This document shows positions 10,266 through 30,515 of a stretch of DNA of 64,000 nt, one piece after another. The notes beneath the pieces were generated by a model. It was given only the letters and a program-made list of their open reading frames with translations. It was not told where the DNA came from and searched no databases. This DNA is from Salegentibacter sp. 24 (GTDB lineage Bacteria; Bacteroidota; Bacteroidia; Flavobacteriales; Flavobacteriaceae): the NCBI RefSeq assembly GCF_004362395.1, contig NZ_SNWE01000015.1:1-64000 (forward strand), read 5' to 3'. How positions within the stretch are numbered: the first letter of the stretch is position 1; each line of letters begins with the position of its first letter. The translations under genes were made by a program, and so were the position numbers.

Positions 10266-10312
10266 TACGTATAAATACGTATTTATACTTAAATTTGAAT
10301 CAAACTTACGTA
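10266..10312 (+). promoter_or_regulatory. nirB promoter with NarL-type 7-2-7 palindrome
   Basis: TACGTAT-AA-ATACGTA (10266..10281) is a perfect inverted repeat of two heptamers separated by 2 bp, the layout known for NarL/NarP sites (TACYYMT and its complement). Further heptamer-like words follow: TACTTAA (10286..10292) and TTACGTA (10306..10312). TAAATTTG at 10290..10297 fits the Bacteroidota -7 box, and the palindrome lies where a -33 box would be. Regulation by the NarX/NarL-like pair encoded downstream is inferred. Confidence 0.65.
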
Positions 10313-10315
10313 GTT

Positions 10316-12826
10316 ATGAGGAAAATAGTTGTAGTAGGAAATGGAATGGTTGGTTATAAATTTTGTGAGAAATTAATCGCCCGTCCTGTTAGAGGAGACT
10401 TTCAAATACAGGTCTTCGGGGAAGAACCGAGTCCAGCTTATGACCGGGTGCACCTGAGTGAATATTTCTCAGAGAAAGGAAAAGATGAATTACTTATGGC
10501 TCCAAGAAGTTGGTACGAAGAAAACGGAATTCAACTACGTACTTCCTCCCTTATTGCAGAAATTAATACAGAAGAAAAGGAAGTTGTCACCTATAAAGGA
10601 GAAAAGCAAAGCTACGATTACCTGGTACTTGCCACAGGTTCTTCGGCTTTTATTCCACCTATAAAAGGTTCAGAAAAAACGGGAGTTTTTGTGTATCGTA
10701 CTACAGAAGATTTGGATGCTATAAAAACCTATGCGAAAAAACTTCGGAAGAAAAACAAATCAAAAACCACGGTGCTTGGAGGCGGACTTTTAGGACTGGA
10801 AGCAGCCAATGCTGCCAAAGAACTCGGCCTTGAAACCAGCGTGATAGAATTTGCGCCACGATTAATGCCCAGGCAATTAGATGATGCCGGTAGTAACACC
10901 CTTATTCGTAAAATAGAAAATTTAAATATAAAAATACTAACCAATAAAGCTACTTCAGAAATATGTGGGGAAGAAGAAATTGATGCACTTACCTTTACAG
11001 ATGGTTCCCGTTATGAAACTGATATGCTTATTATTTCTGCTGGAATCCGCCCACGCGATGAACTGGCAAAAACTGGCGGACTTAAAATTGGCGAACGTGG
11101 TGGGATATTGGTTAATAATAAGATGGAAACATCGGCAAAAGATGTTTACGCCATTGGAGAGGCTGCACTCTACAACAACGCTATCTACGGCCTTGTCGCC
11201 CCAGGATATAATATGGCCGAGGTTGCTGTCTCTCAAATTTGCGGTGGTGATAAAACGATGGCCGATCATATTGATATGTCCACCCAGTTAAAACTAATTG
11301 GCACCGATGTGGCCAGTTTTGGTAATCCGTTTATTGAAAATGATGAAGTATCTGCCATTACCTACGAAAATAAACGATGTGGGATTTATAAACGTATAAA
11401 CGTATCCCGCGATGGTAAAAAACTTCTCGGTGGAATTTTAGTAGGCGATGCTTCAGAGTATCAGAATTTATTCCAGATATATATCAACGGAATGAAACTC
11501 CCTGAAAACCCTGAGGATCTTATACTGGGAAGCCGGGGTGGGGAAAACACGGCCATGGGTTCAATGACCGATTTACCCGATACCGCACAAATTTGTTCCT
11601 GCGAGGCCATTTCAAAAGGAGATATCTGCAATCCACTGGAAACGGGGCAGTGCAGCTCAATGGACGATGTAGTGGCTAGAACCAAAGCCACAACAGGTTG
11701 TGGTGGCTGCAAACCTATGGTTACCGATCTTTTTAATGCTACTATGAAAACGCTGGGAAAGGAAGTAAAAGAGGTGATTTGCGAACATTTCGATTTTAAC
11801 CGACAGGAACTCCTGGATCTTATAAAAATTAATAAAGTCAAAGATTTTAATGAAGCACTAAATCTCTTCGGAAAAGGTCATGGTTGTGAAAAATGCAAAC
11901 CCGTTTTGGCTTCGATTTTTGCAAGTATTACTATGGAAACAGCCAATAAACAGGTAACCATCCAGGATAGTAACGACAAGTTTTTAGCCAATATTCAACG
12001 AAACGGGACTTATTCTATCGTTCCACGTATACCGGGCGGTGAAATTACCCCAGATAAATTAATGACTATAGGCGCCGTAGCCAAGAAATTTGACCTTTAC
12101 ACCAAAATTACCGGCGGACAACGTATTGATCTGTTTGGTGCTGAACTGCATCAACTTCCTGAAATATGGAAGGAATTAATCGATGCCGGATTTGAAAGCG
12201 GCCATGCCTATGGAAAATCTCTGCGAACGGTTAAAAGTTGTGTGGGTTCTACCTGGTGCCGTTTCGGAATGCATGAAAGTGTAAGTTTTGCCATTCAAAT
12301 CGAAGAACGCTATCGCGGTTTGCGCTCACCGCATAAATTAAAAGGAGGGGTTTCCGGTTGCATTAGAGAATGTGCTGAAGCGCGCGGAAAGGATTTTGGA
12401 ATCATTGCTGTTGAATCTGGCTGGAATTTATATGTATGCGGAAATGGAGGCGCCACCCCAAAACACGCCATTTTACTTGCTGAAGGTTTAGACGATGAAA
12501 CAACCATAAAATATCTTGATAGATTTCTGATGTATTACATCCATACGGCTGCACCATTAATGCGTACCGCTCCCTGGCTGGAAAAATTGGACGGAGGCAT
12601 TGAACACCTAAAAAAAGTAGTAATCGAAGATTCTTTAGGTATTGCCGAAGATCTAGAAAAAGAAATGGAGGGGCTAATTACCAATTACGAATGTGAATGG
12701 AAACAGGCTATAGAGGACCCGGAAATGATGAAGCGTTTTAAACATTTTGTCAATTCAGATGAAGGAGATGATAACATTAGTTATGTCCCCCTTCGTGACC
12801 AAAAAATGCCGAGAGCGTGGACCTAA
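10316..12826 (+). CDS. nirB: Assimilatory nitrite reductase [NAD(P)H], large subunit
   Basis: NirB reduces nitrite to ammonium in the cytoplasm with six electrons from NAD(P)H. The start at 10316 (MRKIVVVGNGMVGYKF) gives 836 residues, the family length, and puts the FAD-binding GxGMxG at the N-terminus. Order of domains: FAD/NAD oxidoreductase (1 to about 400, with GGGLLGLEAA for NAD), BFD-type [2Fe-2S] domain (CSCEAI...CGGC), a second degenerate BFD-like copy (CEKC), then the sulfite/nitrite reductase half-domains. C642-x5-C648 and C682-x3-C686 should hold the 4Fe-4S/siroheme centre. It is the first gene of the nirB-nirD-DUF4202-sensor group and has NarL-like boxes in front. Confidence 0.96.
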   Translation: MRKIVVVGNGMVGYKFCEKLIARPVRGDFQIQVFGEEPSPAYDRVHLSEYFSEKGKDELLMAPRSWYEENGIQLRTSSLIAEINTEEKEVVTYKGEKQSYDYLVLATGSSAFIPPIKGSEKTGVFVYRTTEDLDAIKTYAKKLRKKNKSKTTVLGGGLLGLEAANAAKELGLETSVIEFAPRLMPRQLDDAGSNTLIRKIENLNIKILTNKATSEICGEEEIDALTFTDGSRYETDMLIISAGIRPRDELAKTGGLKIGERGGILVNNKMETSAKDVYAIGEAALYNNAIYGLVAPGYNMAEVAVSQICGGDKTMADHIDMSTQLKLIGTDVASFGNPFIENDEVSAITYENKRCGIYKRINVSRDGKKLLGGILVGDASEYQNLFQIYINGMKLPENPEDLILGSRGGENTAMGSMTDLPDTAQICSCEAISKGDICNPLETGQCSSMDDVVARTKATTGCGGCKPMVTDLFNATMKTLGKEVKEVICEHFDFNRQELLDLIKINKVKDFNEALNLFGKGHGCEKCKPVLASIFASITMETANKQVTIQDSNDKFLANIQRNGTYSIVPRIPGGEITPDKLMTIGAVAKKFDLYTKITGGQRIDLFGAELHQLPEIWKELIDAGFESGHAYGKSLRTVKSCVGSTWCRFGMHESVSFAIQIEERYRGLRSPHKLKGGVSGCIRECAEARGKDFGIIAVESGWNLYVCGNGGATPKHAILLAEGLDDETTIKYLDRFLMYYIHTAAPLMRTAPWLEKLDGGIEHLKKVVIEDSLGIAEDLEKEMEGLITNYECEWKQAIEDPEMMKRFKHFVNSDEGDDNISYVPLRDQKMPRAWT

Positions 12827-12872
12827 GTTTAAAAGGCTTTCGAATCAATTCCTAATATCAAACTTTAAAACA

Positions 12873-13250
12873 ATGCAAGAATTATTAGCTCAATACCAAA
12901 GTGTAGCGTTACCAGAAGTAGTAAGATGGGTAAATGTAGGGAAAGCCGAAGAATTTCCTGAAAATGGTGGTGCCTGCATAAAATATAAAAATAAGCAAAT
13001 TGCGGTATTTAATTTTACCCGGGAATCATCATGGTATGCCTGCCAGAACCTTTGTCCGCATAAACTTGAAATGGTGCTATCTCGCGGGATGATCGGCGAT
13101 AAAGAAGGAATTCCAAAAGTAGCATGCCCTATGCATAAAAAAACCTTTTCCTTAAAAGACGGGAATAACCTTAATGGTGAGGATTATAAAATTGCCGTCT
13201 ATCCCGTTAAAATTGAATCAGAAAATGTCTATATTGGTTTTATAGATTAA
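12873..13250 (+). CDS. nirD: NirD-like Rieske subunit of nitrite reductase
   Basis: The start at 12873 (MQELLAQYQSVALPEVVRW) is preferred over an in-frame ATG inside nirB because it leaves a 46-base spacer and removes a non-homologous 42-residue leader. The 125-residue protein carries a complete Rieske motif: C61-P-H63 and C85-P-M-H88, the ligands of a [2Fe-2S] cluster. Many NirD proteins have lost these ligands, so this one belongs to the cluster-bearing type. It is expected to pair with NirB and help electron transfer or folding in nitrite reduction. Confidence 0.9.
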   Translation: MQELLAQYQSVALPEVVRWVNVGKAEEFPENGGACIKYKNKQIAVFNFTRESSWYACQNLCPHKLEMVLSRGMIGDKEGIPKVACPMHKKTFSLKDGNNLNGEDYKIAVYPVKIESENVYIGFID

Positions 13251-13261
13251 GAAACCTCCCA

Positions 13262-13840
13262 ATGAGTAAATTCCAGAAAGCCATACAGCATATAGACCAA
13301 AAAAATGCTGAAGACCCTAATTTAGAAAAAGCAAATGGAAAGGAATTTCCGAAAGAATTACTGTATTCAAAGCGTATGACGGATAAGTTGCTGGATTTTC
13401 ATCCGCAGGCTTCCCAAGAATTACAAATTGCCGTACGTGCCCAACATATTTGTCGTTGGAAAGTACCGCGCGACACCTACCCTATGAACCGGGTTGGATA
13501 CTTAAAATGGCGCGAAGAACTTAAAAAAACCCACGCTGAAATTACATATGAAATTTTGGATGATGTAGGTTATGATCAAGAATTTCTTGACCGGGTTTCT
13601 TTTTTGATTAAAAAAAAGCATATTAAAAAAGACGAAGAATCTCAAATTATGGAAGATGTAGTGTGCCTGGTTTTCCTTGAACATTATTTTGAAGATTTTG
13701 CAGCAAAACATAATGATGAAAAAATAATAGACATTGTAAAGAAAACCTGGGCTAAAATGTCGCCTGAAGGCCACGAAGCTGCCCTTAAACTCGCCCTTTC
13801 CAATCGCAGCGAAACTCTAATACAAGAAGCTTTAAAATAG
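13262..13840 (+). CDS. DUF4202-family protein
   Basis: The protein has 192 residues and no signal peptide or membrane segment. The conserved core RAQHICRWKVPRDTYP followed by NRVGYLKWREELKKTHAE is the signature of the DUF4202 family. Several His, Arg and Asp residues are spread through an all-helical protein, which recalls metal-dependent HD-type folds, but no activity is established. It starts 11 bases after nirD and ends 3 bases before the nitrate-sensor gene, so it is co-transcribed with nitrite reduction. A maintenance or regulatory role in nitrate/nitrite metabolism is inferred only from this position. Confidence 0.85.
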   Translation: MSKFQKAIQHIDQKNAEDPNLEKANGKEFPKELLYSKRMTDKLLDFHPQASQELQIAVRAQHICRWKVPRDTYPMNRVGYLKWREELKKTHAEITYEILDDVGYDQEFLDRVSFLIKKKHIKKDEESQIMEDVVCLVFLEHYFEDFAAKHNDEKIIDIVKKTWAKMSPEGHEAALKLALSNRSETLIQEALK

Positions 13841-13843
13841 ATA

Positions 13844-15661
13844 ATGGCATCGCATAGCTCTCTAGACCAACACACTTTTATTAAACTTAGAAAGCTATAT
13901 ATTCTGGCACTAACGGCTATTGCGCTTTCGGTAATCATTAGTCAATTATTCATAGGCAAGTTTCTAGAGGAACAGGAAGGAGATTCCAAACTTATCAATA
14001 TCTCCGGGCGCCAGCGAATGCTCAGCCAGAAACTCACCAAAGAAAGCCTTTTACTCCTTGAAACTGAAACTATAAACGAGCGCAATAACATTGTACAAAA
14101 CCTGGAAGAAAGCCTTACTCGTTGGGCGCATTCTCACGAAATTTTACAAAATGGCAGTGACAGTTTAAATATTGCTTCAGTACAGAGCGATGAAATTGAA
14201 GACAAATTCAATGACATTCAACCTTATTTTGAAGCTATTAGTGAAGCATCCCAGAATTTAATACTGAAAATAGAAGAAAACCCCGGCCGTCCTATAGAAG
14301 ATTTTTCAGCTGATATAGGAAAAATTCAAGAAAATGAAGCCGCTTTTCTTGAAATTATGGACGCTATAGTAAATCAGTATGACCAGGAAGCACATAGACG
14401 GGTGGAGCGACTACAAAACCTGGAATTATTTTTAACCATTTTTACGCTTTCAATTTTATTACTGGAATTTTTCTTCATCTTTTTACCCACGGCCAAAGGA
14501 GTTCAAAGCAATATTAAAAATCTCTTGCACGCCGAATCCCGGGCCGTTAAAATGGCCCGGGATGCTGACGCCGTAAGAGAGGCCCGGGAAAAATCGGTAA
14601 AAGAATTACGGGCGCTTGGGCAGGCAATGGATAAAATATTACTTTTTGCCCGAATTACCCCAAATGGTGATATTTTGCATATTGGCGACCGGTTTTCAAA
14701 GCTATTTCAGTATAAAAAATTTAATATGGAGACTAAATTCTCCGAAGTTTTATCACCTAAAGAAAACGAACAACTCAATATTGAAAAACTTATTTCAGCG
14801 CATAAAAGATCAGGCTGGCAGGGGGAAGTAAAAGCTTCGACAAAAGAAAAAAAAGATATTTGGCTTGAGCTTTCTATAGTTCCGTTTCAACCCGAAAAAG
14901 ATAAAACCGAACTTACCATAATTGGGGTAGATATCACGAAAAATAAAGAATCCCAATTAAAAATCGAGGAACTTACCCGCCAGAGTTACGAAGAAAAGAT
15001 GCGGCAACAGGGACTGATTGCGAAAAAAATTATTGAAAATCAGGAAAATGAACAAAACCGGATTGCTAAAGATATTCATGACGGAATTGGCCAAATGCTA
15101 ACCGGACTTAAATATAACCTGGAAAGTATAGACTTTAAGTACCCGGAAAAGGCAGAAAGTAAAATTGAAAATTTAAAGGAATTAAGTACAAGAATTATTC
15201 AGGGCGTGAGGGCTGCTACCTTCAATCTAACTCCTCCTGAACTTACTGATCACGGGATTGTACCGGCCCTTCAAAAACTTACCCAAGAGCTTTCAAAATT
15301 AACCGGAAAAAATATTATTTTATTCAATAAAACCGGGTTTTCACAGCGATTGGGAAATATTATTGAAATCAACCTTTACCGCATCACCCAGGAAGCTGTC
15401 AATAACGCTATTAAATATGCTGATTCCACCCATATTATTGTGAGTGTAAGCCACAGTAAAGAAATTTTAAGTATTAGCATTGAAGATAACGGCAAAGGAT
15501 TTGATCCCGAAAGTATTTCAGCAGAAGAAAGCGGTTATCGTGGAATGGGACTCACCTTTATGAAAGAGCGTGTGAAATTTATAGACAGTCGACTTTTCAT
15601 TAATTCCTCTCCTGGAGAAGGGACACGAGTAACGCTTAATCTTCCATTACAACAAGAGTAG
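13844..15661 (+). CDS. NarX-like nitrate/nitrite sensor histidine kinase
   Basis: The protein has 605 residues. One membrane helix lies at about 15-36 and another at about 190-212, enclosing a periplasmic helical domain. Just after the first helix, residues 52-65 read NISGRQRMLSQKLT, the P-box-like motif of NarX/PilJ-type sensors, where NarX binds nitrate. A PAS-like segment (about 260-370) is followed by a HisKA_3 dimerisation helix with His412 (KDIHDGIGQML) and a HATPase_c domain (NNAIKYA, DNGKGFD, GYRGMGLTFMKERV). It should sense nitrate or nitrite outside and phosphorylate the NarL-like regulator encoded 49 bases downstream. The short spacing after the DUF4202 gene shows it belongs to the nirB operon. 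Confidence 0.9.
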   Translation: MASHSSLDQHTFIKLRKLYILALTAIALSVIISQLFIGKFLEEQEGDSKLINISGRQRMLSQKLTKESLLLLETETINERNNIVQNLEESLTRWAHSHEILQNGSDSLNIASVQSDEIEDKFNDIQPYFEAISEASQNLILKIEENPGRPIEDFSADIGKIQENEAAFLEIMDAIVNQYDQEAHRRVERLQNLELFLTIFTLSILLLEFFFIFLPTAKGVQSNIKNLLHAESRAVKMARDADAVREAREKSVKELRALGQAMDKILLFARITPNGDILHIGDRFSKLFQYKKFNMETKFSEVLSPKENEQLNIEKLISAHKRSGWQGEVKASTKEKKDIWLELSIVPFQPEKDKTELTIIGVDITKNKESQLKIEELTRQSYEEKMRQQGLIAKKIIENQENEQNRIAKDIHDGIGQMLTGLKYNLESIDFKYPEKAESKIENLKELSTRIIQGVRAATFNLTPPELTDHGIVPALQKLTQELSKLTGKNIILFNKTGFSQRLGNIIEINLYRITQEAVNNAIKYADSTHIIVSVSHSKEILSISIEDNGKGFDPESISAEESGYRGMGLTFMKERVKFIDSRLFINSSPGEGTRVTLNLPLQQE

Positions 15662-15675
15662 ACTTATATTTAAAA

Positions 15676-15695
15676 ATGCGTATTTTCGTACGTAT
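15676..15695 (+). promoter_or_regulatory. NarL-like heptamers before the response regulator
   Basis: In the 49-base gap between kinase and regulator, ATGCGTA (15676..15682, complement TACGCAT) and TACGTAT (15689..15695) match the heptamer words found at nirB and moeA. Here they diverge with a 6-bp gap, so the geometry is not the 7-2-7 form. They could support autoregulation of the regulator gene. Confidence 0.4.
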
Positions 15696-15710
15696 AAAAT
15701 CAAAACGATT

Positions 15711-16379
15711 ATGGGGCAAACCAAAATTCTTTTAGCCGATGACCACGAATTAGTACGTGATGGCATTAATGCCCTATTGGAAAATGAGGAAAACCTAACT
15801 GTGGTAAATGAGGCGGCCAACGGAAAGGAAGCTCTTGAAATCATTGAAAAAGATACGCCTGATTTACTTATTGTAGATATTAGAATGCCAGAACTAAACG
15901 GCATTGAAGTAGTAAAAAAAGTAAAAAAGGATTTTCCAACTCTAAAAACTCTAGTTCTTTCTATGCACGATTCCACCGAATACGTAGTACAATGCGTAGA
16001 AGCAGGCGCAGATGGTTATTTATTAAAAGGATCCAGCAAGGAAGAATTCCTTAAAGCCATTAATAAGATTGCTGGCGGAGGGAAATATTTTAGTGGTGAT
16101 ATTTCTGCAATTATCGTGAACAATTTTGTGAATGGAGGTTCTGAAAAGCGTGTAGATGCAAGCGCTCAACAACAGGATCCTGCACTAAACATACTTACCA
16201 AAAGGGAGAAACAAATCCTGGAACTTATTTTGAAAGGAAAAAATAACCAGGAAATTGGCGATAAGCTTGAAATTAGTAAGCGAACTGCAGAAGCCCACCG
16301 ATTTAATTTGATGAAAAAACTAGAAGTAAAAAACCTTATGGAACTCACCCATAAATCCCGCGAGCTTAATTTAATTTAA
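15711..16379 (+). CDS. NarL/FixJ-type response regulator
   Basis: The protein has 222 residues. The receiver domain covers about 1-120, with the acidic pair in LLADDHELVRDG, the phospho-accepting Asp56 (LIVDIRMPELNG) and the conserved Lys in YLLKGSSKEEF. The C-terminal LuxR-type HTH (about 155-215) contains LTKREKQILELILKGKNNQEIG and the recognition helix SKRTAEAHRFNLMKKL. It is encoded directly after the NarX-like kinase and is its obvious partner. The heptamer palindromes upstream of nirB, narK and moeA have the layout bound by NarL proteins, so this is the best candidate for the regulator of the whole island. Confidence 0.92.
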   Translation: MGQTKILLADDHELVRDGINALLENEENLTVVNEAANGKEALEIIEKDTPDLLIVDIRMPELNGIEVVKKVKKDFPTLKTLVLSMHDSTEYVVQCVEAGADGYLLKGSSKEEFLKAINKIAGGGKYFSGDISAIIVNNFVNGGSEKRVDASAQQQDPALNILTKREKQILELILKGKNNQEIGDKLEISKRTAEAHRFNLMKKLEVKNLMELTHKSRELNLI

Positions 16380-16563
16380 CCATATGTCCCTATACCAAAA
16401 CAATCTGGGCACCTTTTGAACTCATTTTATTTTCAAGCTTACTGCTAAATACTATCTCTTACCCGAAAATTGATAATTTACCCCTTAAGTTTTTGAACAT
16501 TTATAATTCTAAAGCTTCCTTTTTCCAATTTTCGTATTAATTCATCTTTACTTATTTTTCTAA

Positions 16564-16600
16564 GTATTTATACTTATTTTTAAATACTTAAAACTAAGTA
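16564..16600 (+). promoter_or_regulatory. narK control region with NarL-type palindrome
   Basis: TACTTAA-AA-CTAAGTA (16585..16600) is an inverted heptamer pair with 2-bp spacing. Including flanks, the repeat AATACTTA-AAAC-TAAGTATT is perfect over 8-bp arms. Upstream lies TACTTAT (16571..16577), an exact fit to TACYYMT, and a reverse copy (AAGTA) starts near 16562. The palindrome ends 2 bases before the narK ATG, so it overlaps the ribosome-binding region. Confidence 0.55.
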
Positions 16601-16602
16601 TT

Positions 16603-18003
16603 ATGAAAGATGTGATCACTGGTAAAGCAACTAAATTAGATTTAAGAAATTTAAAAAGTATCCCAATAAGAACATTTTGGATTTCGGCCATAGCCTTTTT
16701 TATCTGCTTTTTTTCCTGGTTTGGAATTGTACCCTTTATGCCCCAGGTAGAAGAAGATTTAGGACTTAGTCCATCCCAAAAATGGAACGCTATTATCCTG
16801 GCTGTCTCGGGAACAGTATTTGCCCGTCTACTTATAGGCAAATTATGCGATAAGTACGGCCCTAGGATTTGTTACACCTGGTTACTGATGTTAGGAGCCA
16901 TTCCCACTATTCTATGCGGGCTGGTGCAAACCCCTCTGCAATTCCAGCTTTGTCGTTTATTTATGGGGTTCATCGGGGCCTCATTCGTAATAACACAGGT
17001 GCATACTTCACTGATGTTCGCGTCTAATGTAGTGGGCACGGCTAATGCAACTTCTGCCGGCTGGGGTAACCTGGGTGGTGGTGCAAATAGGTTGGGAATG
17101 CCATTAATTGCCGCCGGCCTCGTTGCTTTCGGAGTGGCGGAAGCCGAAGTCTGGCGTTATGCCATGGTAGTGGCCGGACTGGTATGTTTCATTATGGGTT
17201 TTGTTTATTATTTCTTTACCCAGGATACCCCGGAAGGAAATTTTTCAGACTTAAAAAAATCGGGAAAAAGAATTCCCATTAAAAAAGATCAAAACGGCTT
17301 CTTAACCGCTATCAAAGATTATCGCGTATGGATACTTTTTGTAGTTTACGGAGTTTGCTTCGGAATAGAACTTACCGTTTACGGGACCATGGACAGCTAC
17401 TTGCAAAACACTTTTAACCTGGAACGCGTAACAGCCGGAAACATTATTTTAGGCTTCGCACTAATGAACCTTTTTGCCAGGACCCTGGGCGGATACTTTG
17501 GTGATAAATCAGGAGAAAAAGGTGGGTTAAGGGGTCGTGTATTCTTTCTTACCCTAATTCTAATTGCCGAAGGTGTTATACTTTCGTTATTCTCCATGGC
17601 CGGAAGCCTTATTATAGCCATTGTACTCCTCACTGCATTCAGCCTAGCTGTACAAATGGCCGAAGGTGCCACATTTGCCGTGGTCCCGTTTATCAATAAA
17701 AAGGCCATCGGCTCTATCTCCGGAATTGTAGGTGCTGGCGGAAATGTTGGGGCGTTTTTAGCAGCATTATTCCTAAAAATTAAATCAGTTGCAGCCGAAG
17801 AAGCAGCAATTGCGGCTAACCAAGGACGTAGCAGTGAAATTGTTGAAGCAGCAAGAGCTTCGGCATCTTCAGCAGCAATTTCTGATGCTTTTCTATGGAT
17901 TGGTTTCAGCATTCTAGCCGCAGGACTCGTTAGCCTGGCAATTCGTTTCTCACACGAAGACGAAAAAAAGGCCGCAATAGAGTTACGTCATCAAAATGCC
18001 TAA
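16603..18003 (+). CDS. narK: NarK-type nitrate/nitrite MFS transporter
   Basis: The 466-residue protein has about 12 hydrophobic segments and the two nitrate signatures of the NarK/NNP family: AGWGNLGGGANRLGMP (about 146-161) and VGAGGNVGAFLAALF (about 380-394). Arg residues in the early helices (FARLLIGKLCDKYGPR) match the substrate-binding and MFS loop motifs. It sits in the inner membrane and brings nitrate in, or exchanges nitrate for nitrite, to feed the cytoplasmic reductase encoded next. It is placed between the regulator and the nitrate reductase gene, with its own NarL-like sites. Confidence 0.95.
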   Translation: MKDVITGKATKLDLRNLKSIPIRTFWISAIAFFICFFSWFGIVPFMPQVEEDLGLSPSQKWNAIILAVSGTVFARLLIGKLCDKYGPRICYTWLLMLGAIPTILCGLVQTPLQFQLCRLFMGFIGASFVITQVHTSLMFASNVVGTANATSAGWGNLGGGANRLGMPLIAAGLVAFGVAEAEVWRYAMVVAGLVCFIMGFVYYFFTQDTPEGNFSDLKKSGKRIPIKKDQNGFLTAIKDYRVWILFVVYGVCFGIELTVYGTMDSYLQNTFNLERVTAGNIILGFALMNLFARTLGGYFGDKSGEKGGLRGRVFFLTLILIAEGVILSLFSMAGSLIIAIVLLTAFSLAVQMAEGATFAVVPFINKKAIGSISGIVGAGGNVGAFLAALFLKIKSVAAEEAAIAANQGRSSEIVEAARASASSAAISDAFLWIGFSILAAGLVSLAIRFSHEDEKKAAIELRHQNA

Positions 18004-18071
18004 AAAGTCTTTAATAAACGCCCGAATTATATGAAGATTTAGCAGAAAAAACCCCTTCTTTTAATAAATTA

Positions 18072-18099
18072 TAAGCGCTTAATAACCAGCGTTTAAGTA
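18072..18099 (+). promoter_or_regulatory. Possible control sites upstream of nitrate reductase
   Basis: TAAGCGCTTA (18072..18081) is a perfect 10-bp palindrome, and TTAAGTA (18093..18099, complement TACTTAA) is one NarL-like heptamer of the type seen at narK. Only a single heptamer is present, so evidence of direct control is weak; read-through from narK (114 bases upstream) is the alternative. Confidence 0.3.
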
Positions 18100-18117
18100 T
18101 ATTTTGTCGCTGAGTTT

Positions 18118-21642: not shown

Positions 21643-21717
21643 CAGGCTTATAGATTAAGATTGACCAGAAAGCCGAAGAATTAAAAAAAGTATTCAGGTC
21701 GGTTTAAATTAAATACT

Positions 21718-23166: not shown

Positions 23167-23292
23167 TCTATGATTACAACCACTGCGAAATTGAAAGAAA
23201 AAATGTGCAAATTGATTTATGGCTTTTCTCCAGGAATGATTAATTAAATTTAGTCCGGAGCAATATTAATACGCCCAAAAGTAATCTATCAC

Positions 23293-24300
23293 TTATCCTC
23301 CAATAGTAATCATACTACGGTTATTACTGTGTTTTTCTGGGTTTTGAAGTTTTTTAAAACTGTCCATTCCCGCACGTTTAGCTTTCTTTTTAAACATTCG
23401 GTTTTCTATTAATGGCTCAATATTTTCTCCATCTCTAAAAGCACCGAGCAAGTCGGTTTCTTTGTTAGAAAACAAACAATTCTTGATTTTTCCGTTAGCG
23501 GTTAAGCGAATGCGGTTACAGCCATCACAAAAAGGATTGGTTACCGAACTGATTATTCCGAAGTTTCCCTGAAATCCATTTATTTTAAAATCGCGGGAAG
23601 TAAAATTCGGTTCATTATCTAGATCGAGGACATTTTCAATCCCGAAAAAAGAGATTATTTTCGCCATAATTTCTTCCTGGGAAACCAGTTTATCCTTGCT
23701 CCACTTATTTCCATCAAAAGGCATAAATTCGATAAACCGAACGCTTATTGGCCGATTTCGGGTAAAAAGCACAAAATCGTTGATTTCATCTTCATTAAAA
23801 TACTTCATCAAGACCGCGTTAATTTTCACATTAAAACCTTGATCAATTAGCAATAGCATATTATCATAGGCTTTCTGAAACTGATCGCGCCGTGTAATTA
23901 CCCTAAATTTCCCTTCATCTAAAGTGTCCAGGCTCAAATTGATTTTTTTGAGTCCGTATTTTTTAAAATCGGCTATAAACCTATCAGCCAAAATTGCGTT
24001 TGTGGTGATTCCAAGTTCTACATCCAGGGTGGAAAGTTTTTTAAGAATTTCCGTAAAATCTTTTCTAACCAAAGGCTCTCCTCCGGTTAACCTTATCTTA
24101 TCAACCCCGTTTTTCACAAAAACCTTTGCGATTTGGTAAATTTCTTCAGCCGTCATCAACTCGCTTCTGGGCGTGAGCGGCACCCCGTTTTCAGGCATAC
24201 AATAATTGCAGCGCAAATTGCATTTTTCCGATAAGGAAATACGCAAATAATTATGATTTCGACCAAATTTATCGGTAAGCACTGCGGTTGTCTTAGACAT
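23293..24300 (-). CDS. moaA: GTP 3',8-cyclase (molybdenum cofactor step 1)
   Basis: The 335-residue radical-SAM enzyme starts the molybdopterin pathway by rearranging GTP to 3',8-cH2GTP. C27-x3-C31-x2-C34 is the SAM-cluster motif. The second cluster ligands are in PFCDGCNRIRLTANGKIKNC, and the chain ends with the functional GG tail (ITIGG). It is the last gene of the minus-strand cofactor operon and its first 8 bases overlap the end of moaCB, implying translational coupling. Confidence 0.97.
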   Translation of the reverse strand: MSKTTAVLTDKFGRNHNYLRISLSEKCNLRCNYCMPENGVPLTPRSELMTAEEIYQIAKVFVKNGVDKIRLTGGEPLVRKDFTEILKKLSTLDVELGITTNAILADRFIADFKKYGLKKINLSLDTLDEGKFRVITRRDQFQKAYDNMLLLIDQGFNVKINAVLMKYFNEDEINDFVLFTRNRPISVRFIEFMPFDGNKWSKDKLVSQEEIMAKIISFFGIENVLDLDNEPNFTSRDFKINGFQGNFGIISSVTNPFCDGCNRIRLTANGKIKNCLFSNKETDLLGAFRDGENIEPLIENRMFKKKAKRAGMDSFKKLQNPEKHSNNRSMITIGG

Positions 24301-25210
24301 TTTCAGGATGTTTTGCTCCCCTTAAAATTTTAAAAACGTGAAGCAGATGGGGGAAAACTGCTTCCATAGATTCGCGAGCACCACTTGTTGAACCTGGCAA
24401 TGCAAGGACCAAACAATTGCCGATAGTTCCCGCCAGGCTTCGTGAAAGCATTGCATACGGCATACGCTCCTGCCCGTAATTTCGAATGGCCTCTTCAATT
24501 CCGGGAATTCGCCTTTCGATAATCGGCTCCAAAGCTTCGGGAGTTACGTCTCGAAAAGAAAGTCCCGTTCCTCCAGTATAAATCACCAAATCATTTTCCC
24601 CTGAATAGGTTAATGCTTTATTTCGAATAATTTCGGCTTCATCGGGAATCACCTCGTAAGAAGCGATTTCAACGCCGCTTTCTTCCAGTTTTTCAATAAT
24701 TGCCTTTCCGGCGTGGTCTTCTTTTTTTCCTTCCGAGATGCTATCGGAACAAACCACAACGCAAGCCTTTAATTTTCGTCGGCTATTTTGCTGAAAACTG
24801 CTTTTCCCGCCCGATTTTTTTACCAGGGAAATATTTCTGATTTCAATATTTTTATCCAGAGGTTTCAGCATATCGTACATCGTTAGAGCCACAATTGATG
24901 CGCCGTGCATCGCCTCTACCTCTACCCCGGTTTTATAAACGGTTTTTACGGTGACATTTATGGTTACTTCCAAGCCCTCAATTTCATAATCTACTGCTGT
25001 AAATTCCACCGGAAGCGGGTGACAGTCGGGAATACTCTGACTCGTATTTTTTACCGCAAACAATCCCGCGGTTTTTGCCATTTCAAAAACATCGCCTTTG
25101 GGAACTTTATTCTCCAAAAGGGCTTTTTTTGTGGCTTGGTCACCCAGTTTCACCACGGCTTTTGCCGTGGCGGTGCGCAGGGTTTTTATTTTGTGTGTGA
25201 TATCTACCAT
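24293..25210 (-). CDS. moaCB: Bifunctional MoaC-MoaB molybdopterin protein
   Basis: The 305-residue protein joins two pathway steps. Residues 1 to about 150 are MoaC, cyclic pyranopterin monophosphate synthase, with CHPLPV, VEAMHGASIVALTMYDM and the Lys of LVKKSGGKS. Residues about 155-305 are MoaB/MogA, which adenylylates molybdopterin, with SDSISEG, TGGTGLSFRDVTPE and ALPGSTSGARE. This fusion is found in several Bacteroidota and other phyla. It lies between moaE (3-base gap) and moaA (8-base overlap). Confidence 0.95.
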   Translation of the reverse strand: MVDITHKIKTLRTATAKAVVKLGDQATKKALLENKVPKGDVFEMAKTAGLFAVKNTSQSIPDCHPLPVEFTAVDYEIEGLEVTINVTVKTVYKTGVEVEAMHGASIVALTMYDMLKPLDKNIEIRNISLVKKSGGKSSFQQNSRRKLKACVVVCSDSISEGKKEDHAGKAIIEKLEESGVEIASYEVIPDEAEIIRNKALTYSGENDLVIYTGGTGLSFRDVTPEALEPIIERRIPGIEEAIRNYGQERMPYAMLSRSLAGTIGNCLVLALPGSTSGARESMEAVFPHLLHVFKILRGAKHPENV

Positions 25211-25213
25211 AAT

Positions 25214-25642
25214 TTATGTATTGACTTTCCATTGAAATTCTTTTGAAGCGAAAACCTCTTTTCCAAAAATCGGGACTTCGCTTTTCACCCGGTTTACCAG
25301 GTATTCTGTGGCTTCATAAACTTCTTTTCTTCTTTTTGAAGAGACAAAAACGAAAAAACATACTTCCCCCGCTTTAATTTCACCCAGGCTATGATAAATA
25401 TGCATGCACGTAAGATTAAACTTTGTAAAAGCATCTTCCCGAATCTCGTGCATCTTCTCCCTGGCCATTTCTTCATAAGCCGAATAGGTTATGGCGGTGA
25501 CTTCTTTCCCGTCAACCTCATCGGCTCGAATTTGACCAAGGAAAATATTATGAGCACCTATATTTTTCTTGCTTTGATGTTTCGCAATGGCCTGGGCAAC
25601 AAATCCGGGTTGAATAGCTCCTTCTATAAATACTTTTTTCAT
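25214..25642 (-). CDS. moaE: Molybdopterin synthase catalytic subunit
   Basis: The 142-residue protein transfers sulfur from MoaD thiocarboxylate to cyclic pyranopterin monophosphate. Family marks include GAHNIFLGQIRADEVDGK, LEYEAY-like TYSAYEEMAREKM, IYHSLGEIKAGE, and RVKSEVPIFGKEVF with the active-site Lys. It is separated from moeB upstream by a 228-base gap with repeat-like sequence, unlike the tight spacing elsewhere in the operon. Confidence 0.95.
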   Translation of the reverse strand: MKKVFIEGAIQPGFVAQAIAKHQSKKNIGAHNIFLGQIRADEVDGKEVTAITYSAYEEMAREKMHEIREDAFTKFNLTCMHIYHSLGEIKAGEVCFFVFVSSKRRKEVYEATEYLVNRVKSEVPIFGKEVFASKEFQWKVNT

Positions 25643-25791
25643 TTTTTAAAATTTAATAATTATTGAATCAGCGACATTTATTTATTTCAGAATATAATGA
25701 CCTAATTTGCAATTGTTTTGCAGATTTCGCTTTTTAGGATATTTATTTAAGAGATTGCTTTAGTCGTGCCCTTGTCAAGGAGAGGTTCTTT

Positions 25792-25867
25792 CGTCATTGC
25801 GAGCTACGCCAAAAATGCGGTAGCCTGTAGTTTGCCATACCATAGACCCTGAATCAAATTCAGAGTC
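25792..25867. repeat. Degenerate dispersed intergenic repeat with hairpins
   Basis: The gap between moeB and moaE contains CGTCATTGCGAG (25792..25803), a word typical of dispersed REP-like repeats in bacterial genomes, followed by GCTAC/GTAGC arms. An inverted repeat GACCCTGAAT-CAA-ATTCAGAGTC (25845..25867, one mismatch) follows and ends 3 bases before the moeB stop codon. It resembles the GTCACCCTGAA-type intergenic repeats seen in Bacteroidota. Copies elsewhere cannot be checked within this window. Confidence 0.5.
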
Positions 25868-25870
25868 ACC

Positions 25871-26917
25871 TTAAGTTGTTTCGACCACTTCATTCAATTT
25901 ATGCAGAGCGATCACCCCTCCTGAAATACTTTTCACATTTTTAAAATTATAAGCCTTCAAAATTTTTACGGCGGCCAGGCTGCGTTTTCCACTTTGGCAA
26001 ATCACTTGAATTTCTTCTTCAGGATTTAGGAGGCAAAGCTCATTTTCCAGGTTTCGAAGCGGAATTTCAAGCATTCTCGGAAAAGCTATCTTTGGCTGTT
26101 CGTAGCCTTCTCTTACATCCAAAAAAATGGCATTTTCATTTATTTCTTCCGCGGAAATTTCTTCGGAAAAAGGTTGAATATATTGCCTATTATAGAAATC
26201 ATTATCGATTTTTAAGTCCTCAATTTTGCTGAACTCAAAAATATCCTGCCGGTTAAAAAGCGTGTTGTACATCAAAAGTTTTCCTGAAAGCACTTCCCCG
26301 GCATCCATTATGATTTTTAGTATTTCGGTAGCCTGAAACATTCCCGACAGGCCAACGGTGGTACCCAAAACCCCTGCGTCTTCGCAATTCTGTACTTCGG
26401 CTTTTTCATCTGGAAACAAACAGCGGTAAGTCGGCCCGCTTTTAAAATTAAAAACCGAAACCTGAAATTCAAATTTATAAACCGAAGCATAAACAAAGGC
26501 TTTCCCGCTCAAAACACAGGCATCGTTAATCAGGTAGCGAACAGCAAGGCTATCGGTGCAATCCACTACTAAATCGTAGTTTTTAATCAATTGCAGCGCA
26601 TTTTCTCCATTTAGAAATTCCTGGTAATTTTCAATTTTCACTTCAGAATTCAATGCTAAAAGCTGTTTCCGGGCTTCGGTTACTTTAAACTTCCCAACCG
26701 TTTTTTCCCGAAACAATACCTGTCTTTGCAAATTGCTCTCATCAACCCGGTCGCCATCGACAAGACCCAATTTTCCAATGCCGGCCGCTGCGAGATAGGG
26801 TAAAACAGCGCAGCCCAGGCCGCCCACTCCTATTACAAGGACCTTGCTGTTTTTTAATTTTTCCTGACCATTTTCGCCAACTTGTGGCAGGCCGATTTGT
26901 TTCTTATATCGCTGCAT
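25871..26917 (-). CDS. moeB: MoeB-type sulfur-carrier adenylyltransferase with rhodanese domain
   Basis: The 348-residue protein activates the C-terminus of MoaD. The N-terminal ThiF/E1 domain (1 to about 240) has the ATP-binding VLVIGVGGLGCAVLPYLAAAG and ESNLQRQVLF, and the loop YRCLFPDEKAEVQNCEDAGVL. The C-terminal rhodanese domain (about 250-345) has an active-site CQSGKRS loop for sulfur delivery. The first CxxC pair of zinc-binding MoeB proteins is not evident, so the structural zinc site may be missing. It begins 2 bases after moaD. Confidence 0.93.
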   Translation of the reverse strand: MQRYKKQIGLPQVGENGQEKLKNSKVLVIGVGGLGCAVLPYLAAAGIGKLGLVDGDRVDESNLQRQVLFREKTVGKFKVTEARKQLLALNSEVKIENYQEFLNGENALQLIKNYDLVVDCTDSLAVRYLINDACVLSGKAFVYASVYKFEFQVSVFNFKSGPTYRCLFPDEKAEVQNCEDAGVLGTTVGLSGMFQATEILKIIMDAGEVLSGKLLMYNTLFNRQDIFEFSKIEDLKIDNDFYNRQYIQPFSEEISAEEINENAIFLDVREGYEQPKIAFPRMLEIPLRNLENELCLLNPEEEIQVICQSGKRSLAAVKILKAYNFKNVKSISGGVIALHKLNEVVETT

Positions 26918-26919
26918 AA

Positions 26920-27156
26920 TTAGCCTCCTGAAAATGGCGGTAAAACCGCTATTTCATCGTTATCCTTTAACCTGAAATTCTCGCATTGTTTTCTAATTTT
27001 TCGATTTACGGCTACCTGAACCGCTAGCTTCTGTATATTATACTTTTCGTGCAAGACCAAAATTAAGTTTGAAAAATTAGTTTCATTTAAGGCCAATCTC
27101 TCTTCATCACATCCTGCGACTTCGGCCATCATTCCAAAATACTTTATTGTTAACAT
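26920..27156 (-). CDS. moaD: Molybdopterin synthase sulfur-carrier subunit
   Basis: A 78-residue ubiquitin-like protein that ends in the required double glycine (VLPPFSGG). The terminal Gly is adenylated by MoeB and converted to a thiocarboxylate that MoaE uses. The start overlaps the end of the SUMT gene by 7 bases, and moeB follows after 2 bases, so the three are translated from one message. Confidence 0.95.
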   Translation of the reverse strand: MLTIKYFGMMAEVAGCDEERLALNETNFSNLILVLHEKYNIQKLAVQVAVNRKIRKQCENFRLKDNDEIAVLPPFSGG

Positions 27157-27971
27157 AATTCAGCTGATTTTGGGATATGCAAATACCCCAGATTCTGAAG
27201 AAGAAATTCATCGACTTCTGTAGTGCTGAGCTGCTTTTTATAAGCTTCACATTCTTTAACCACTTCCCCTATAATGATGATTGCCGGGGTCCCTAATTCA
27301 TATTCTTTGGCAAGGTTTTCAATATTCCCAATACTCCCGGCAATAAGCTTTTGTTCCTTTAAAGTGCCATTTTGGATAATTGCAACCGGCATTTCATCTT
27401 TGGCTTCATTTTTATATAAAGCAGCTATTTCAGCGAGTTTTCCCATTCCCATTACAATTACCACCGTTGCCGAGCTTTTAGCAGCCAGGCTCACATCTTT
27501 AGAAAGCTTATGCCCTGAAGTTGTTCCGGTAATCACCCAAAAACTCTCGGCAATATGGCGCTGTGTTACTGGAATTCCAACCGAAGAAGGTACCGCAACA
27601 GCCGAAGAAATTCCTGAAATCACCTCAACTTCTACTCCGTGCGCCTGAGCATAATTTTTTTCTTCACTCCCCCTACCGAAAACAAACGGGTCACCGCCTT
27701 TTAAGCGAACCACTGCACCTTTTTCCTTTGCAAATTTTACGATAAGCTCATTGATTTGTTCCTGGGCATAGGCGTGGCATCCTTTCCTCTTTCCCACAAA
27801 GATTTTTTCAGCGCGGGGGGCATGCTCCAGCATTTCAGGATTCACCAGGGCGTCGTAAAGTACAACGGCTGCATTACTGAGCGATTTCACCGCTTTTAAA
27901 GTCAACAGATCCGGGTCTCCCGGGCCTGCGCCCACTATCGTACATTTAGGTATTTGGGTTAAAGTTTTCAT
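27150..27971 (-). CDS. cobA: Uroporphyrinogen-III C-methyltransferase (SUMT)
   Basis: The 273-residue SAM-dependent enzyme makes precorrin-2, the precursor of siroheme. Motifs are VGAGPGDPDLLTLKA near the N-terminus and VVRLKGGDPFVFGRGSEE around 80-97, both diagnostic for the family. It sits among molybdenum cofactor genes, which makes sense because the island needs siroheme for NirB as well as MGD for the nitrate reductase. The dehydrogenase/ferrochelatase that finishes siroheme is not in this window. Confidence 0.95.
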   Translation of the reverse strand: MKTLTQIPKCTIVGAGPGDPDLLTLKAVKSLSNAAVVLYDALVNPEMLEHAPRAEKIFVGKRKGCHAYAQEQINELIVKFAKEKGAVVRLKGGDPFVFGRGSEEKNYAQAHGVEVEVISGISSAVAVPSSVGIPVTQRHIAESFWVITGTTSGHKLSKDVSLAAKSSATVVIVMGMGKLAEIAALYKNEAKDEMPVAIIQNGTLKEQKLIAGSIGNIENLAKEYELGTPAIIIIGEVVKECEAYKKQLSTTEVDEFLLQNLGYLHIPKSAELC

Positions 27972-27982
27972 TTGTTTTCAGA

Positions 27983-28549
27983 TTAATTTAAACTCGCTAA
28001 TTGTTGCTGTGTATTGATATTTTTTAACAAATTAGCTTCTTCGGCATCCACAATTATTTTTCTGGAATATCGACTTTTCACAAATTGTTGTACTCGTAAT
28101 TCATTATACTGAAGGCTGAATTCTAAAGCTTTGGTCAATTTTTTTTCATAGACACCGATAAGCGGAAATTCATTTTCGGAATCGGCCAGGTAACTGATTT
28201 CAGCATATTTTTGGGCCGTTATTTTTAGTAGTCTTTCAATGATTTCGGTACTAATAAGCGGAATATCACAACTTAGAATTAAGTTCTTTTCTGCTGAAGA
28301 GTGATGTAAAGCAGTGTAAATCCCGCCCAGCGGACCTTTTTCAGGAAAAATATCTTTAACCAGTTCTAATCCGAACTTTTCATAATCCCTGTTTGAGGTG
28401 ACCAGACAAATGTTTTCTGATATTGGTTTTACCGCATTTAAAATGCAGCTCATAAAAGTATTTCCGCGGAAATAAACCAGGCCTTTTTCAGTTCTCATCC
28501 GCGAACTTTTTCCGCCGCACAAAATATAGGTGTTTATTTGGTTTTTCAT
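27983..28549 (-). CDS. mobA: Molybdenum cofactor guanylyltransferase
   Basis: The 188-residue nucleotidyltransferase joins GMP to molybdopterin to give the MGD form used by NapA/NasA-type enzymes. The N-terminal LCGGKSSRMRTEKGLVYF is the GTP-binding signature, and LSCDIPLISTEIIERL contains the metal-binding Asp. It overlaps the TSUP gene by 4 bases and is followed by SUMT after 11 bases. Confidence 0.94.
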   Translation of the reverse strand: MKNQINTYILCGGKSSRMRTEKGLVYFRGNTFMSCILNAVKPISENICLVTSNRDYEKFGLELVKDIFPEKGPLGGIYTALHHSSAEKNLILSCDIPLISTEIIERLLKITAQKYAEISYLADSENEFPLIGVYEKKLTKALEFSLQYNELRVQQFVKSRYSRKIIVDAEEANLLKNINTQQQLASLN

Positions 28550-29283
28550 AATATCACCAGTTTTAGACAGGCTAAAGCCAAAACCCCAGAAAGAATATAT
28601 CGCAGGCTCAATGCCGAAATCCTTTGACTTCCGAAATACGCGCCCAGGCTTCCGCCAAGTAAAACGGCTGGCAACAACCAGAAGCTTTCAGCAGGAATAA
28701 ATCCGCCCTGAACAAAAAAACCTGTGAGACCGGCTAAAGAATTAACCAATATAAACAAGGCTGAAATCGCCGCAGCCTCTTTCATTGTTCCCCATCCTAA
28801 AATCACAATTAAGGGACTCAAAATAATTCCACCACCAATTCCTATCATACCTGACAATAATCCGATAATCATACCAGCAATGATGACTATAAGTAATTTT
28901 GGCTGAACAATCCTGCTTTTTTCCTTTCCGAAGAAACCTGAAATCCGGAGTGCACCTATTAGTAAAAATCCACCAAGAATTAGTTTAAAATACTGAGCAG
29001 GAATACTTAAATATCCACCTAAAAAAGCAGCGGGTATTGAGCCCAGCACCAGCCATAAAAACAACCGGCGATTAAAATTTCCTTTTCTGAAAAATAAAAA
29101 TGCTACTGCCGAAACCACCACATTAAGTACGAGCGCTGTGGGTTTCATAAAACTTACCGGAAATGCACAAATGGCCATAAGTGCCAAATAACCGCTAGCC
29201 CCGCCGTGTCCCACAACCGCATACATGAATGAAACCATAACAAGAATAAATAAAAATACTATGTTGAGTTCGGGGTACAGCAT
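28546..29283 (-). CDS. TSUP (TauE/SafE) family membrane permease
   Basis: The 245-residue protein has about 7-8 hydrophobic helices and the two family repeats with glycine-rich cores (VGHGGASGYLALMAI near the start, and GLLSGMIGIGGGIILSPLIV in the middle). TSUP proteins move small anions, mostly sulfur oxyanions or sulfoacetate, but substrates vary. It overlaps moeA by 1 base and mobA by 4, so it is firmly part of the cofactor operon. Nitrate, nitrite, sulfite or molybdate are possible substrates; none can be chosen from sequence. Confidence 0.88.
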   Translation of the reverse strand: MLYPELNIVFLFILVMVSFMYAVVGHGGASGYLALMAICAFPVSFMKPTALVLNVVVSAVAFLFFRKGNFNRRLFLWLVLGSIPAAFLGGYLSIPAQYFKLILGGFLLIGALRISGFFGKEKSRIVQPKLLIVIIAGMIIGLLSGMIGIGGGIILSPLIVILGWGTMKEAAAISALFILVNSLAGLTGFFVQGGFIPAESFWLLPAVLLGGSLGAYFGSQRISALSLRYILSGVLALACLKLVIL

Positions 29284-30455
29284 TACAGGTCCAATTCAAA
29301 ATATTCAACTTCCCCGTTCTCCGGGATTTCTTCAACATTTTCAGGGATACAAGCCAGGGCGTTGCTTACAGCAAATGAATGTAACATGGAAGACGACTGA
29401 CCCTTTAGGATGCTTAATTTACCATCTTCAACTTTGGCTTTTTGAAAGAAGGTTTTTCCTGCTGGTTTAAATATTCTCTCCGCTGAAATTGCCGTCTTGA
29501 GATTGGCCCTAAATTTTTTTCCGGTCATTTTCCGTATTGCAGGAAGGACATATACATAAAAACAGCTTAAACTCGAAGCCGGATTTCCGGGCAGGGCAAA
29601 GACTATCTTTTTGTCTTTTTTACCAAACCATAGCGGTTTTCCGGGTTTTTGTTTTACCATATAGAACACCTCATTGATATGGTTGGCCAGCAGTGCTTTT
29701 TTTACAAAATCGTAATCGCCCACTGAAATTCCACCGGAAATAAGCAACAGATCATTCTGATCCAGAGCTTTTTCAATGGCCTGCTTAGTCCTTAGAAAAT
29801 CATCTTTGACCCGATATTTTGTGATTTGATCGACTCCAGCCTTTTTTAATGCCAGTTCGAGCATTATAGAATTACTTTCATAAATACAACCGGGTTTCAA
29901 GGTTTTGCCAGGTTGCTGTAATTCATTTCCGGTTACCAGTATTCCTACTTTTGGAGTTGCATAAACCTCAACCTTAGCAATTCCGAGTCCGGCTAACAAG
30001 CCTATAGAGGCTTCATTTAATACCAACCCACTTTTAAACACCAGTTCCCCGGATTTTAACTGCTCACCTTCACTACGTATATTTGCGTATTTTTTTGGTT
30101 TTTTTATAAATTTTACGGTATTCCCGTCTAGCTGCGCCCATTCTTGAATAATTACAGTATCGGCATTTTCTGGTACTGCAGCCCCGGTAAATACCCGAGT
30201 GGCCTCTCCCGCCTTTAACCGAATTTTAGCAGAATCGCCGGCTTTTAATTCCTGGTTCAACGTGTAAGAATTACAACTATTGAGCATTACCGCATAACCA
30301 TCCATTGCGGAATTTCTGAAGCTAGGTAGGTTTATCGGTGAATAGGTATCAAAAGCCAAGGTCATTCCTTGAACCTCCGCAAGAGGAAGCATTACTGGCT
30401 CCATCTTAAATATGCTGGATGCTATTAATTCCAATGCTTTATCTACCTGAATCAT
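29283..30455 (-). CDS. moeA: Molybdopterin molybdenumtransferase
   Basis: MoeA inserts molybdate into adenylylated molybdopterin. I chose the start at 30455 (MIQVDKALELIASSIFKM), giving 390 residues, because the 14 upstream in-frame residues are not family-like and the alternative would leave no room for a leader. Motifs include NLPSFRNSAMDGYAV (about 45-60), TGAAVPENADTVI, GGISVGDYDFVKKAL (the catalytic Asp loop) and ALPGNPASSLSCF. It is the first gene of the nine-gene cofactor operon and carries a NarL-like palindrome 45 bases upstream. Confidence 0.95.
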   Translation of the reverse strand: MIQVDKALELIASSIFKMEPVMLPLAEVQGMTLAFDTYSPINLPSFRNSAMDGYAVMLNSCNSYTLNQELKAGDSAKIRLKAGEATRVFTGAAVPENADTVIIQEWAQLDGNTVKFIKKPKKYANIRSEGEQLKSGELVFKSGLVLNEASIGLLAGLGIAKVEVYATPKVGILVTGNELQQPGKTLKPGCIYESNSIMLELALKKAGVDQITKYRVKDDFLRTKQAIEKALDQNDLLLISGGISVGDYDFVKKALLANHINEVFYMVKQKPGKPLWFGKKDKKIVFALPGNPASSLSCFYVYVLPAIRKMTGKKFRANLKTAISAERIFKPAGKTFFQKAKVEDGKLSILKGQSSSMLHSFAVSNALACIPENVEEIPENGEVEYFELDL

Positions 30456-30499
30456 GGTGTTCCAATTATTATTGCAAGATAATAACTGAAAAAACAAAT

Positions 30500-30515
30500 T
30501 ACGTATTTTTACGTA
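30500..30515 (-). promoter_or_regulatory. NarL-type 7-2-7 palindrome before moeA
   Basis: TACGTAT-TT-TTACGTA is a nearly perfect inverted heptamer pair with 2-bp spacing, the same design as the nirB site (TACGTAT-AA-ATACGTA). Centred about 52 bases upstream of the moeA start, it would place the whole cofactor operon under the same regulator as nitrate and nitrite reduction. Confidence 0.6.

Follow-up and report, generated by a model that had tools for sequence, protein, structure and literature searches.

The stretch analysed here (the window) comprises the first 64,000 nucleotides of contig NZ_SNWE01000015.1 of the flavobacterium Salegentibacter sp. 24, and it contains a nitrate assimilation cluster in which a family of 16-bp palindromes stands ahead of nirB, narK and the operon for molybdenum cofactor (Moco) synthesis. 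On the basis of sequence comparison, these palindromes are probably operators of NarRR, a two-component response regulator encoded within the cluster, which would thereby control nitrate assimilation and Moco synthesis. The proposed NarRR core site is TA(A/C)GTA-N4-TAC(T/G)TA, with an A/T-rich spacer and AA/TT flanks. A NarRR dimer on this core, aided by further half-sites that face the same side of the helix, would control nirB and its downstream genes, narK, nasA and the Moco operon; among relatives, sites that may serve the same purpose are also found at narRR, an FNR-like gene and nrtA-like, outer-membrane porin-like and globin-like genes. The sensor kinase NarHK would phosphorylate NarRR, presumably with nitrate as the signal. 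We infer binding from the site itself, its register, its phasing, its conservation and its co-occurrence with NarRR, all of which were observed.

Definition of the palindromic site

The initial annotation proposed that nirB, narK and the Moco operon are connected by a single family of palindromes, and the three palindromes it named are present exactly where it put them, at 10266, 16585 and 30500. The link itself is borne out by conservation at orthologous promoters; the motif had to be corrected. When up to one mismatch is allowed, the pattern common to the three palindromes, TACNTA-N4-TANGTA, is found 8 times in the window where 1.72 matches are expected, and 0 of 100 shuffled sequences reach 8. 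Its exact form occurs at 4 places in the 4.15 Mb genome, 3 of them the reported palindromes. A backward control of the pattern matches 7 places, so what is unusual is the clustering of the matches and not their number.

Related loci were taken as the best 80 of 351 NasA relatives in named genomes, 1.81 Mb in total. As a family motif the pattern above was rejected, with 23 matches in these loci versus 230 for the corrected core TAMGTA-N4-TACKTA, which occurs 1, 0, 0, 1 and 1 times in five dinucleotide-shuffled sets. The scan of related flavobacteria that the initial annotation suggested thus speaks for the corrected core and not for the earlier pattern. Start-to-start distance 10 prevails among pairs of TACTTA, TAAGTA and TACGTA (238 pairs). 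The conserved site is TAAGTA-N4-TACTTA, with TACGTA as a variant half-site, and its half-sites are opposite in orientation to the pair at 16585. The palindrome at 16585 was rejected as the conserved narK site: TAAGTA-N4-TACTTA occurs 108 times in the 80 loci and TACTTA-N4-TAAGTA once. The flanks of the core tend to AA and TT also where no promoter box adjoins the site (122 sites, with approximately 71% A at both positions), and the density of hexamers in the loci is 4.2 per 130 bp ahead of nirB and narK versus 0.17 elsewhere.

A scan of the organism's own genome, also suggested by the initial annotation, gave the predicted outcome: exact sites concentrate in the nitrate/Moco cluster, and all four exact matches to the corrected core are located there (10266, 10276, 16561 and 30500), while its backward control matches 3 places. 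With an A/T spacer the counts are 4 for the core and 0 for the control. With one mismatch allowed, the core matches 29 places and the control 70, and the signal is therefore one of position, not number. Dinucleotide shuffling of the window (n=200) leaves a mean of 0.005 core sites compared with the 4 real ones.

Ahead of nirB, the palindrome of the initial annotation, TACGTATAAATACGTA (10266..10281, + strand), shares a half-site with a second, overlapping palindrome, TACGTATTTATACTTA (10276..10291, +). It is this second site that lies in conserved register with the promoter, as do 46 of the 57 nirB-proximal sites in the 80 loci, and it is the putative nirB operator. The narK array includes the half-site TACTTA (16549..16554, +), the putative conserved operator TAAGTATTTATACTTA (16561..16576, +), which is followed by TATTTTTA, and TACTTA and TAAGTA, the half-sites of the palindrome first reported (16585..16600, +), the second of them 8 nt before the ATG. 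The putative Moco-operon operator, TACGTAAAAATACGTA (30500..30515, - strand), has TTTG one base downstream. The most likely start of moeA is the ATG at 30455 on the - strand; a TTG at 30497 falls inside the promoter. A lone TACGTA half-site precedes narRR (15689..15694, +), where many relatives have a full site, and only one half-site, TAAGTA at 18094, is present upstream of nasA.

Promoter register and target genes

The flavobacterial -7 box is TAnnTTTG and spans -12 to -5, as described in the available part of PMC9723704. In the 80 loci the palindrome stands in a preferred register with this element. TTTG lies exactly 2 bases downstream in 112 of the 230 sites, with lesser peaks at 11-13, 23-25 and 33-34, and the final TA doubles as the start of TAnnTTTG at 46 of 57 nirB, 32 of 51 narK and 10 of 20 nasA sites; no exact box is found downstream of 18 narK and 9 nasA sites. 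At nirB of the window the putative -7 box is TAAATTTG (10290..10297, +), by the consensus and position given in the same source, and its TA is that of the operator. At narK, TATTTTTA constitutes a weak -7 box. There is no peak of TTG at the expected -33 position, where it appears in 7 of 112 cases at offsets 20-21. The narRR sites (37 among the 80 loci and the window) have a different arrangement, in which the box starts 8-12 bases later in 35 of 37, or about one helical turn; the site being one turn upstream suggests a different mode of autoregulation.

All of the nirB promoters examined (n=57) have at least two hexamers in 130 bp, and 42 have an exact boxed site, as do 24 of 39 narK promoters. 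Outside the core, inter-hexamer spacings have a peak period of approximately 10.5-11.5 bp (R 0.46-0.48, 463 pairs), and the extra half-sites are helically phased. A hexamer precedes the nirB start codon within 16 nt in 47 of 57 cases and at exactly -9 in 43, including the window, where TACGTA (10307..10312, +) is located 9 nt 5' of the ATG. The fixed -9 position may point to an added role in translation initiation.

We lean modestly towards phosphorylated NarRR being an activator of an intrinsically weak promoter, since at structural genes the last bases of the site are usually the TA with which the -7 box starts, and a -33 TTG peak is missing. A site that overlaps the -7 box would also suit a repressor, and this counts against the assignment of sign. 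A fuller model is less likely than not to be right: NarRR would activate on the promoter itself, with the palindrome overlapping the -7 box and standing in for a -33 element, phased half-sites running from upstream into the pre-ATG leader, and the one-turn shift altering the mode at its own promoter.

Targets were tallied from 104 distinct boxed sites in the fetched stretches, a smaller set than all family-scan sites, from which 10 in kinase- or regulator-negative genomes were dropped. By our own tally, 78 of the remaining 94 precede nirB (38), narK or narK-like genes (19), FNR-like genes (13) and nasA (8). Another 8 precede an unassigned gene and 8 have no start within 260 nt; some of the unassigned targets resemble NMT1_2 (nrtA-like) and Alginate_exp proteins. 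The distance from TTTG to the start codon is 16-21 nt in 23 of 38 nirB and 15 of 19 narK cases. One locus (L216) has a globin gene preceded by a site. Frequent among the targets is the gene of a Crp/FNR-like regulator that has a Cys cluster at its N-terminus (L143:13246-13998, L137:1746-2450, L139:7462-8175), and its presence there suggests a regulatory cascade.

The NarRR regulator, its distribution and alternative binders

The initial annotation described a NarX-like sensor and a NarL-like regulator in the cluster. The domain architecture agrees with this description and the family-level scores do not. NarRR (15711..16379, +), the proposed binder, consists of a receiver and a LuxR/GerE helix-turn-helix domain in the NarL-type order (Pfam Response_reg PF00072, 4.5e-31; GerE PF00196, 6.5e-20), and its best PDB match is NarL (1a04). 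It falls below the NCBIfam equivalog cut-offs for NarL (151 bits versus 250) and NarP (132 versus 343), as the kinase does for NarQ (84 versus 553) and NarX (73.5 versus 578). The kinase, NarHK (13844..15661, +), has a PilJ-type sensor, and its Pfam matches are limited to PilJ, PAS_9, HisKA_3 and two HATPase models, with no match to HAMP or GAF; this is the domain layout of the Bacteroidetes narHK class as given in the available part of PMC8199190. The sensor motif GRQRMLSQKL is kept in 14 of 15 aligned sensors and lost in that of locus L083. The recognition helix SxRTxExHRFNLMKK is found in all 68 regulators of the 80 loci, and more distant regulators have slightly changed versions, such as HRFSLMKK (G207) and HRFNMMKK (G407).

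The distribution of the site follows that of the regulator. We searched a family sample of 199 genomes and a class-wide sample of 295. NarRR is present in 46 of the 199 family genomes, and NasA at 63% identity or above is found in exactly these; a 47th genome (G361) has a 43% relative only. The boxed core (site and -7 box) occurs in 43 of 46 NarRR-positive and 6 of 153 NarRR-negative genomes (Fisher 2e-33), and its backward control in 7 of 199 (3 NarRR-positive, 4 NarRR-negative). A further palindrome, TACGTAGTTCTACGTA, recurs, together with close forms that have G/C in the spacer, in some regulator-negative family genomes without a nas cluster; places matching the relaxed pattern number 9 in G401 and 19 in G423. 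Because this palindrome spoils the N4 spacer, an A/T spacer was adopted for the genome-wide test. Without the box condition, the A/T-spacer core is found in 46 of 46 NarRR-positive genomes (1-9 per genome) and 38 of 153 NarRR-negative ones (1-5). In a genome of the same genus (G325), NarRR, NasA and the site are all absent. Class-wide, the boxed site occurs in 4 of the 6 genomes whose kinase match is strong (E below 1e-70) versus 4 of 289 others; the remaining two of the six, G207 and G267, lack its exact form and carry unboxed sites within the narRR/nas region.

In three of the NarRR-positive genomes (G296, G376 and G471), a profile search at 1e-20 did not find the N-terminal part of the kinase; G376 and G471 do have a kinase, with no PilJ domain match, and for G296 the check was confined to the fetched stretches. 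The narRR, narHK and DUF4202 genes of G471 are on a different contig from nirB and nasA, which retain sites. This separation, together with the PilJ-less kinases, indicates that the site follows the regulator and not the sensor. Kinase relatives without a PilJ match (L214:7364-8797, L138:12812-14179, L083:7135-8922) are found in loci where regulator and operator are retained. A/T-spacer sites away from mapped promoters in NarRR-positive genomes (11 regions, L230-L240) are mixed: some precede nrtA-like or transporter genes, others stand at unrelated genes, and that in L238 resembles a terminator hairpin.

Several observations weigh against NarRR as the binder, or against the strength of the evidence for it. 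The p-values overstate significance, since the genomes share ancestry and there is overlap between the 80 loci and the 199 genomes. Regulator and pathway are statistically inseparable, the same 46 genomes having both NarRR and NasA. The exact boxed pattern is missing from three NarRR-positive genomes (G318, G369, G295). The backward control of the A/T-spacer core matches 26 of 46 NarRR-positive and 38 of 153 NarRR-negative genomes (hand count), which means that this looser form has a real background; G435 has 4 sites and 4 controls, and in regulator-negative G327 and G448 the A/T-spacer sites (5 and 4, respectively; L221-L229) are dispersed among unrelated genes with no coherent set of targets. 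The looser N4 pattern also matches TACGTAGTTCTACGTA in regulator-negative genomes, and class-wide the boxed pattern and its control each match 8 of 295 genomes. Among promoters, moeA starts have a site in only 7 of 11 scorable cases in the 80 loci, and in the window narK has a weak -7 box only, the register of the Moco site is off by one base, and just one half-site precedes each of nasA and narRR. On the protein side, the top sub-threshold NCBIfam matches are MctR (187 bits, cut-off 300) and MctS (128 bits), ahead of NarL and NarQ, and a structure match search with the kinase gave no NarX or NarQ; the case for nitrate sensing consequently depends on the PilJ domain and the neighbouring genes.

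The span of the palindrome alone does not name its binder, because a Crp/FNR site would have similar geometry. Binding by the Crp/FNR-family regulator with an N-terminal cysteine cluster is the strongest of the alternatives, and we consider it unlikely. FNR/CRP site geometry, with a G five bases from the dyad, would presumably fit the palindromes. Many nas clusters have the FNR-like gene within or beside them; 34 of the 46 NarRR-positive genomes and 0 of the other family genomes have a close relative (E below 1e-70), and the gene's own promoter often has the site (13 sites). HcpR2 sites in Bacteroides also have a 5-4-5 form, according to the available part of PMC1274295. However, 12 of the 46 NarRR-positive genomes, including that of the window, have no close FNR-like relative at the same threshold; the A/T-spacer site is nevertheless present in every one of them and the boxed site in 10. 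A weaker Crp-family match (E 1e-31 to 1e-38) was found in eight of the 12, and many NarRR-negative genomes also have one; at 1e-30 the window genome, G324, G435 and G468 have no match. Retention of the site without a close FNR-like relative leads us to downgrade this candidate.

It is more improbable still that an unlinked, family-wide transcription factor binds the sites and NarRR works elsewhere. The inseparability of NarRR and the pathway by co-occurrence would accommodate such a factor, but in genomes without the cluster the boxed site is at control level (6 of 153 versus 4 of 153), and so the factor would have to act on the genes of the cluster alone.

The initial annotation also assigned the palindromes to the NarL type, with a site variant TACGTAT. 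NarL sites are given as TACYYMT (PMC4886647), in heptamers preferably inverted with a 2-bp gap (PMC4549865), in the available parts of these papers. That arrangement is found here, the 16-bp TAMGTA-N4-TACKTA prevailing in the spacing counts. The bases differ: TAAGTAT is the dominant heptamer, TACGTAT is a minority form, and TAAGTAT departs from TACYYMT at positions 3 and 4. The five palindromes of the window have 2 to 4 mismatches to TACYYMT-N2-AKRRGTA, and a scan limited to 7-2-7 pairs found 0 exact matches in the window and 0 in the 80 loci, with 20 in the loci at one mismatch. At the positions aligned with NarL K188, V189 and K192, which we take to be DNA contacts, NarRR has E, a small or branched residue, and F. 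It is therefore very improbable that the palindromes are canonical NarL sites that differ in a minor base. The shared span, the outer TA..TA and a NarL-type regulator with NarL as its best solved match speak for that reading; the dominant half-site, the lack of exact TACYYMT pairs and recognition-helix positions that differ from NarL in the alignment speak against it.

Gene cluster content and biological context

The cluster contains nirB, the large subunit of NADH nitrite reductase (10316..12826, +), and a nirD-like Rieske protein (12747..13250, +, as the longest open reading frame, with its true start uncertain), followed by a gene for a DUF4202 protein (13262..13840, +) that adjoins the two-component system. 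Downstream of narHK and narRR are a narK-type nitrate/nitrite transporter (16603..18003, +; 297 bits, NarK-family cut-off 312), a nasA-type assimilatory nitrate reductase fused to an NADH-dependent reductase and BFD domain (18118..21642, +), and a rubredoxin protein with a nitrite/sulfite-reductase ferredoxin-like half domain (21718..23166, +). The Moco operon (23293..30455, -) comprises moaA, a moaC-mog fusion, moaE, moeB, cobA, mobA, tauE/safE and moeA. With an NADH-linked NasA fusion and NirBD, the enzyme set appears to be assimilatory and not a respiratory Nar system. The closest loci by NasA, at 91 and 93% identity, are from Salegentibacter, and the gene order of the window recurs in many of the 80 loci.

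NasA carries the NirB-like NADH reductase and BFD module in a single protein of 1174 aa. The TauE/SafE-family gene (28546-29283) lies within the Moco operon in the window and in a number of relatives. DUF4202 adjoins narHK in most loci where both are found, and in G471 it is located with narHK and narRR (L214:6785-7360), apart from nirB and nasA; it looks like a member of the signalling module, and it is not named in any paper found by our literature search.

The system resembles NarX-NarL and NarQ-NarP of Proteobacteria in its PilJ/NarX-type sensor region, HisKA_3 kinase, NarL-type regulator, 16-bp inverted repeat and association with nitrate genes. It differs from them in having TAAGTAT in place of TACYYMT, a kinase with a PAS domain and no HAMP or GAF match, scores below the NarL, NarP, NarX and NarQ cut-offs, assimilatory targets, and a site that abuts the Bacteroidota -7 box. 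The Bacteroidetes narHK/narRR pair was described in 2021 (PMC8199190), and the PAS-containing, HAMP-less and GAF-less nitrate-sensor kinase beside a regulator in nitrate clusters agrees with that account; relative to its available part, a putative operator and regulon and the promoter architecture are added here. HcpR2 sites (GTAAC-N4-GTTAC, available part of PMC1274295) likewise form a palindrome with a 4-bp centre at nitrogen-oxide genes in Bacteroides, but the half-site, targets and regulator family differ, and the FNR-like gene is dispensable for the site here. A description of this operator was not found in the literature, judged by titles and the beginnings of abstracts, with full texts limited to openly licensed PMC articles. 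The kinase/regulator pair is already known, and the operator motif is apparently new.

To our knowledge, few Bacteroidota regulators have a known operator. Both the promoters and the primary sigma factor of the phylum are unusual (available part of PMC9723704). With a defined operator that keeps a constant position relative to the -7 box and goes with a single regulator in many genera, two questions come within reach of ordinary experiments: how Bacteroidota turn on nitrate use, and how regulators act at TAnnTTTG promoters. The motif also predicts regulon members, among them Moco genes, a porin, a globin and an FNR-like regulator. Overall, the palindromes constitute a putative switch at the nitrate-use genes of many marine Bacteroidota, unlike the proteobacterial one in both sequence and placement.

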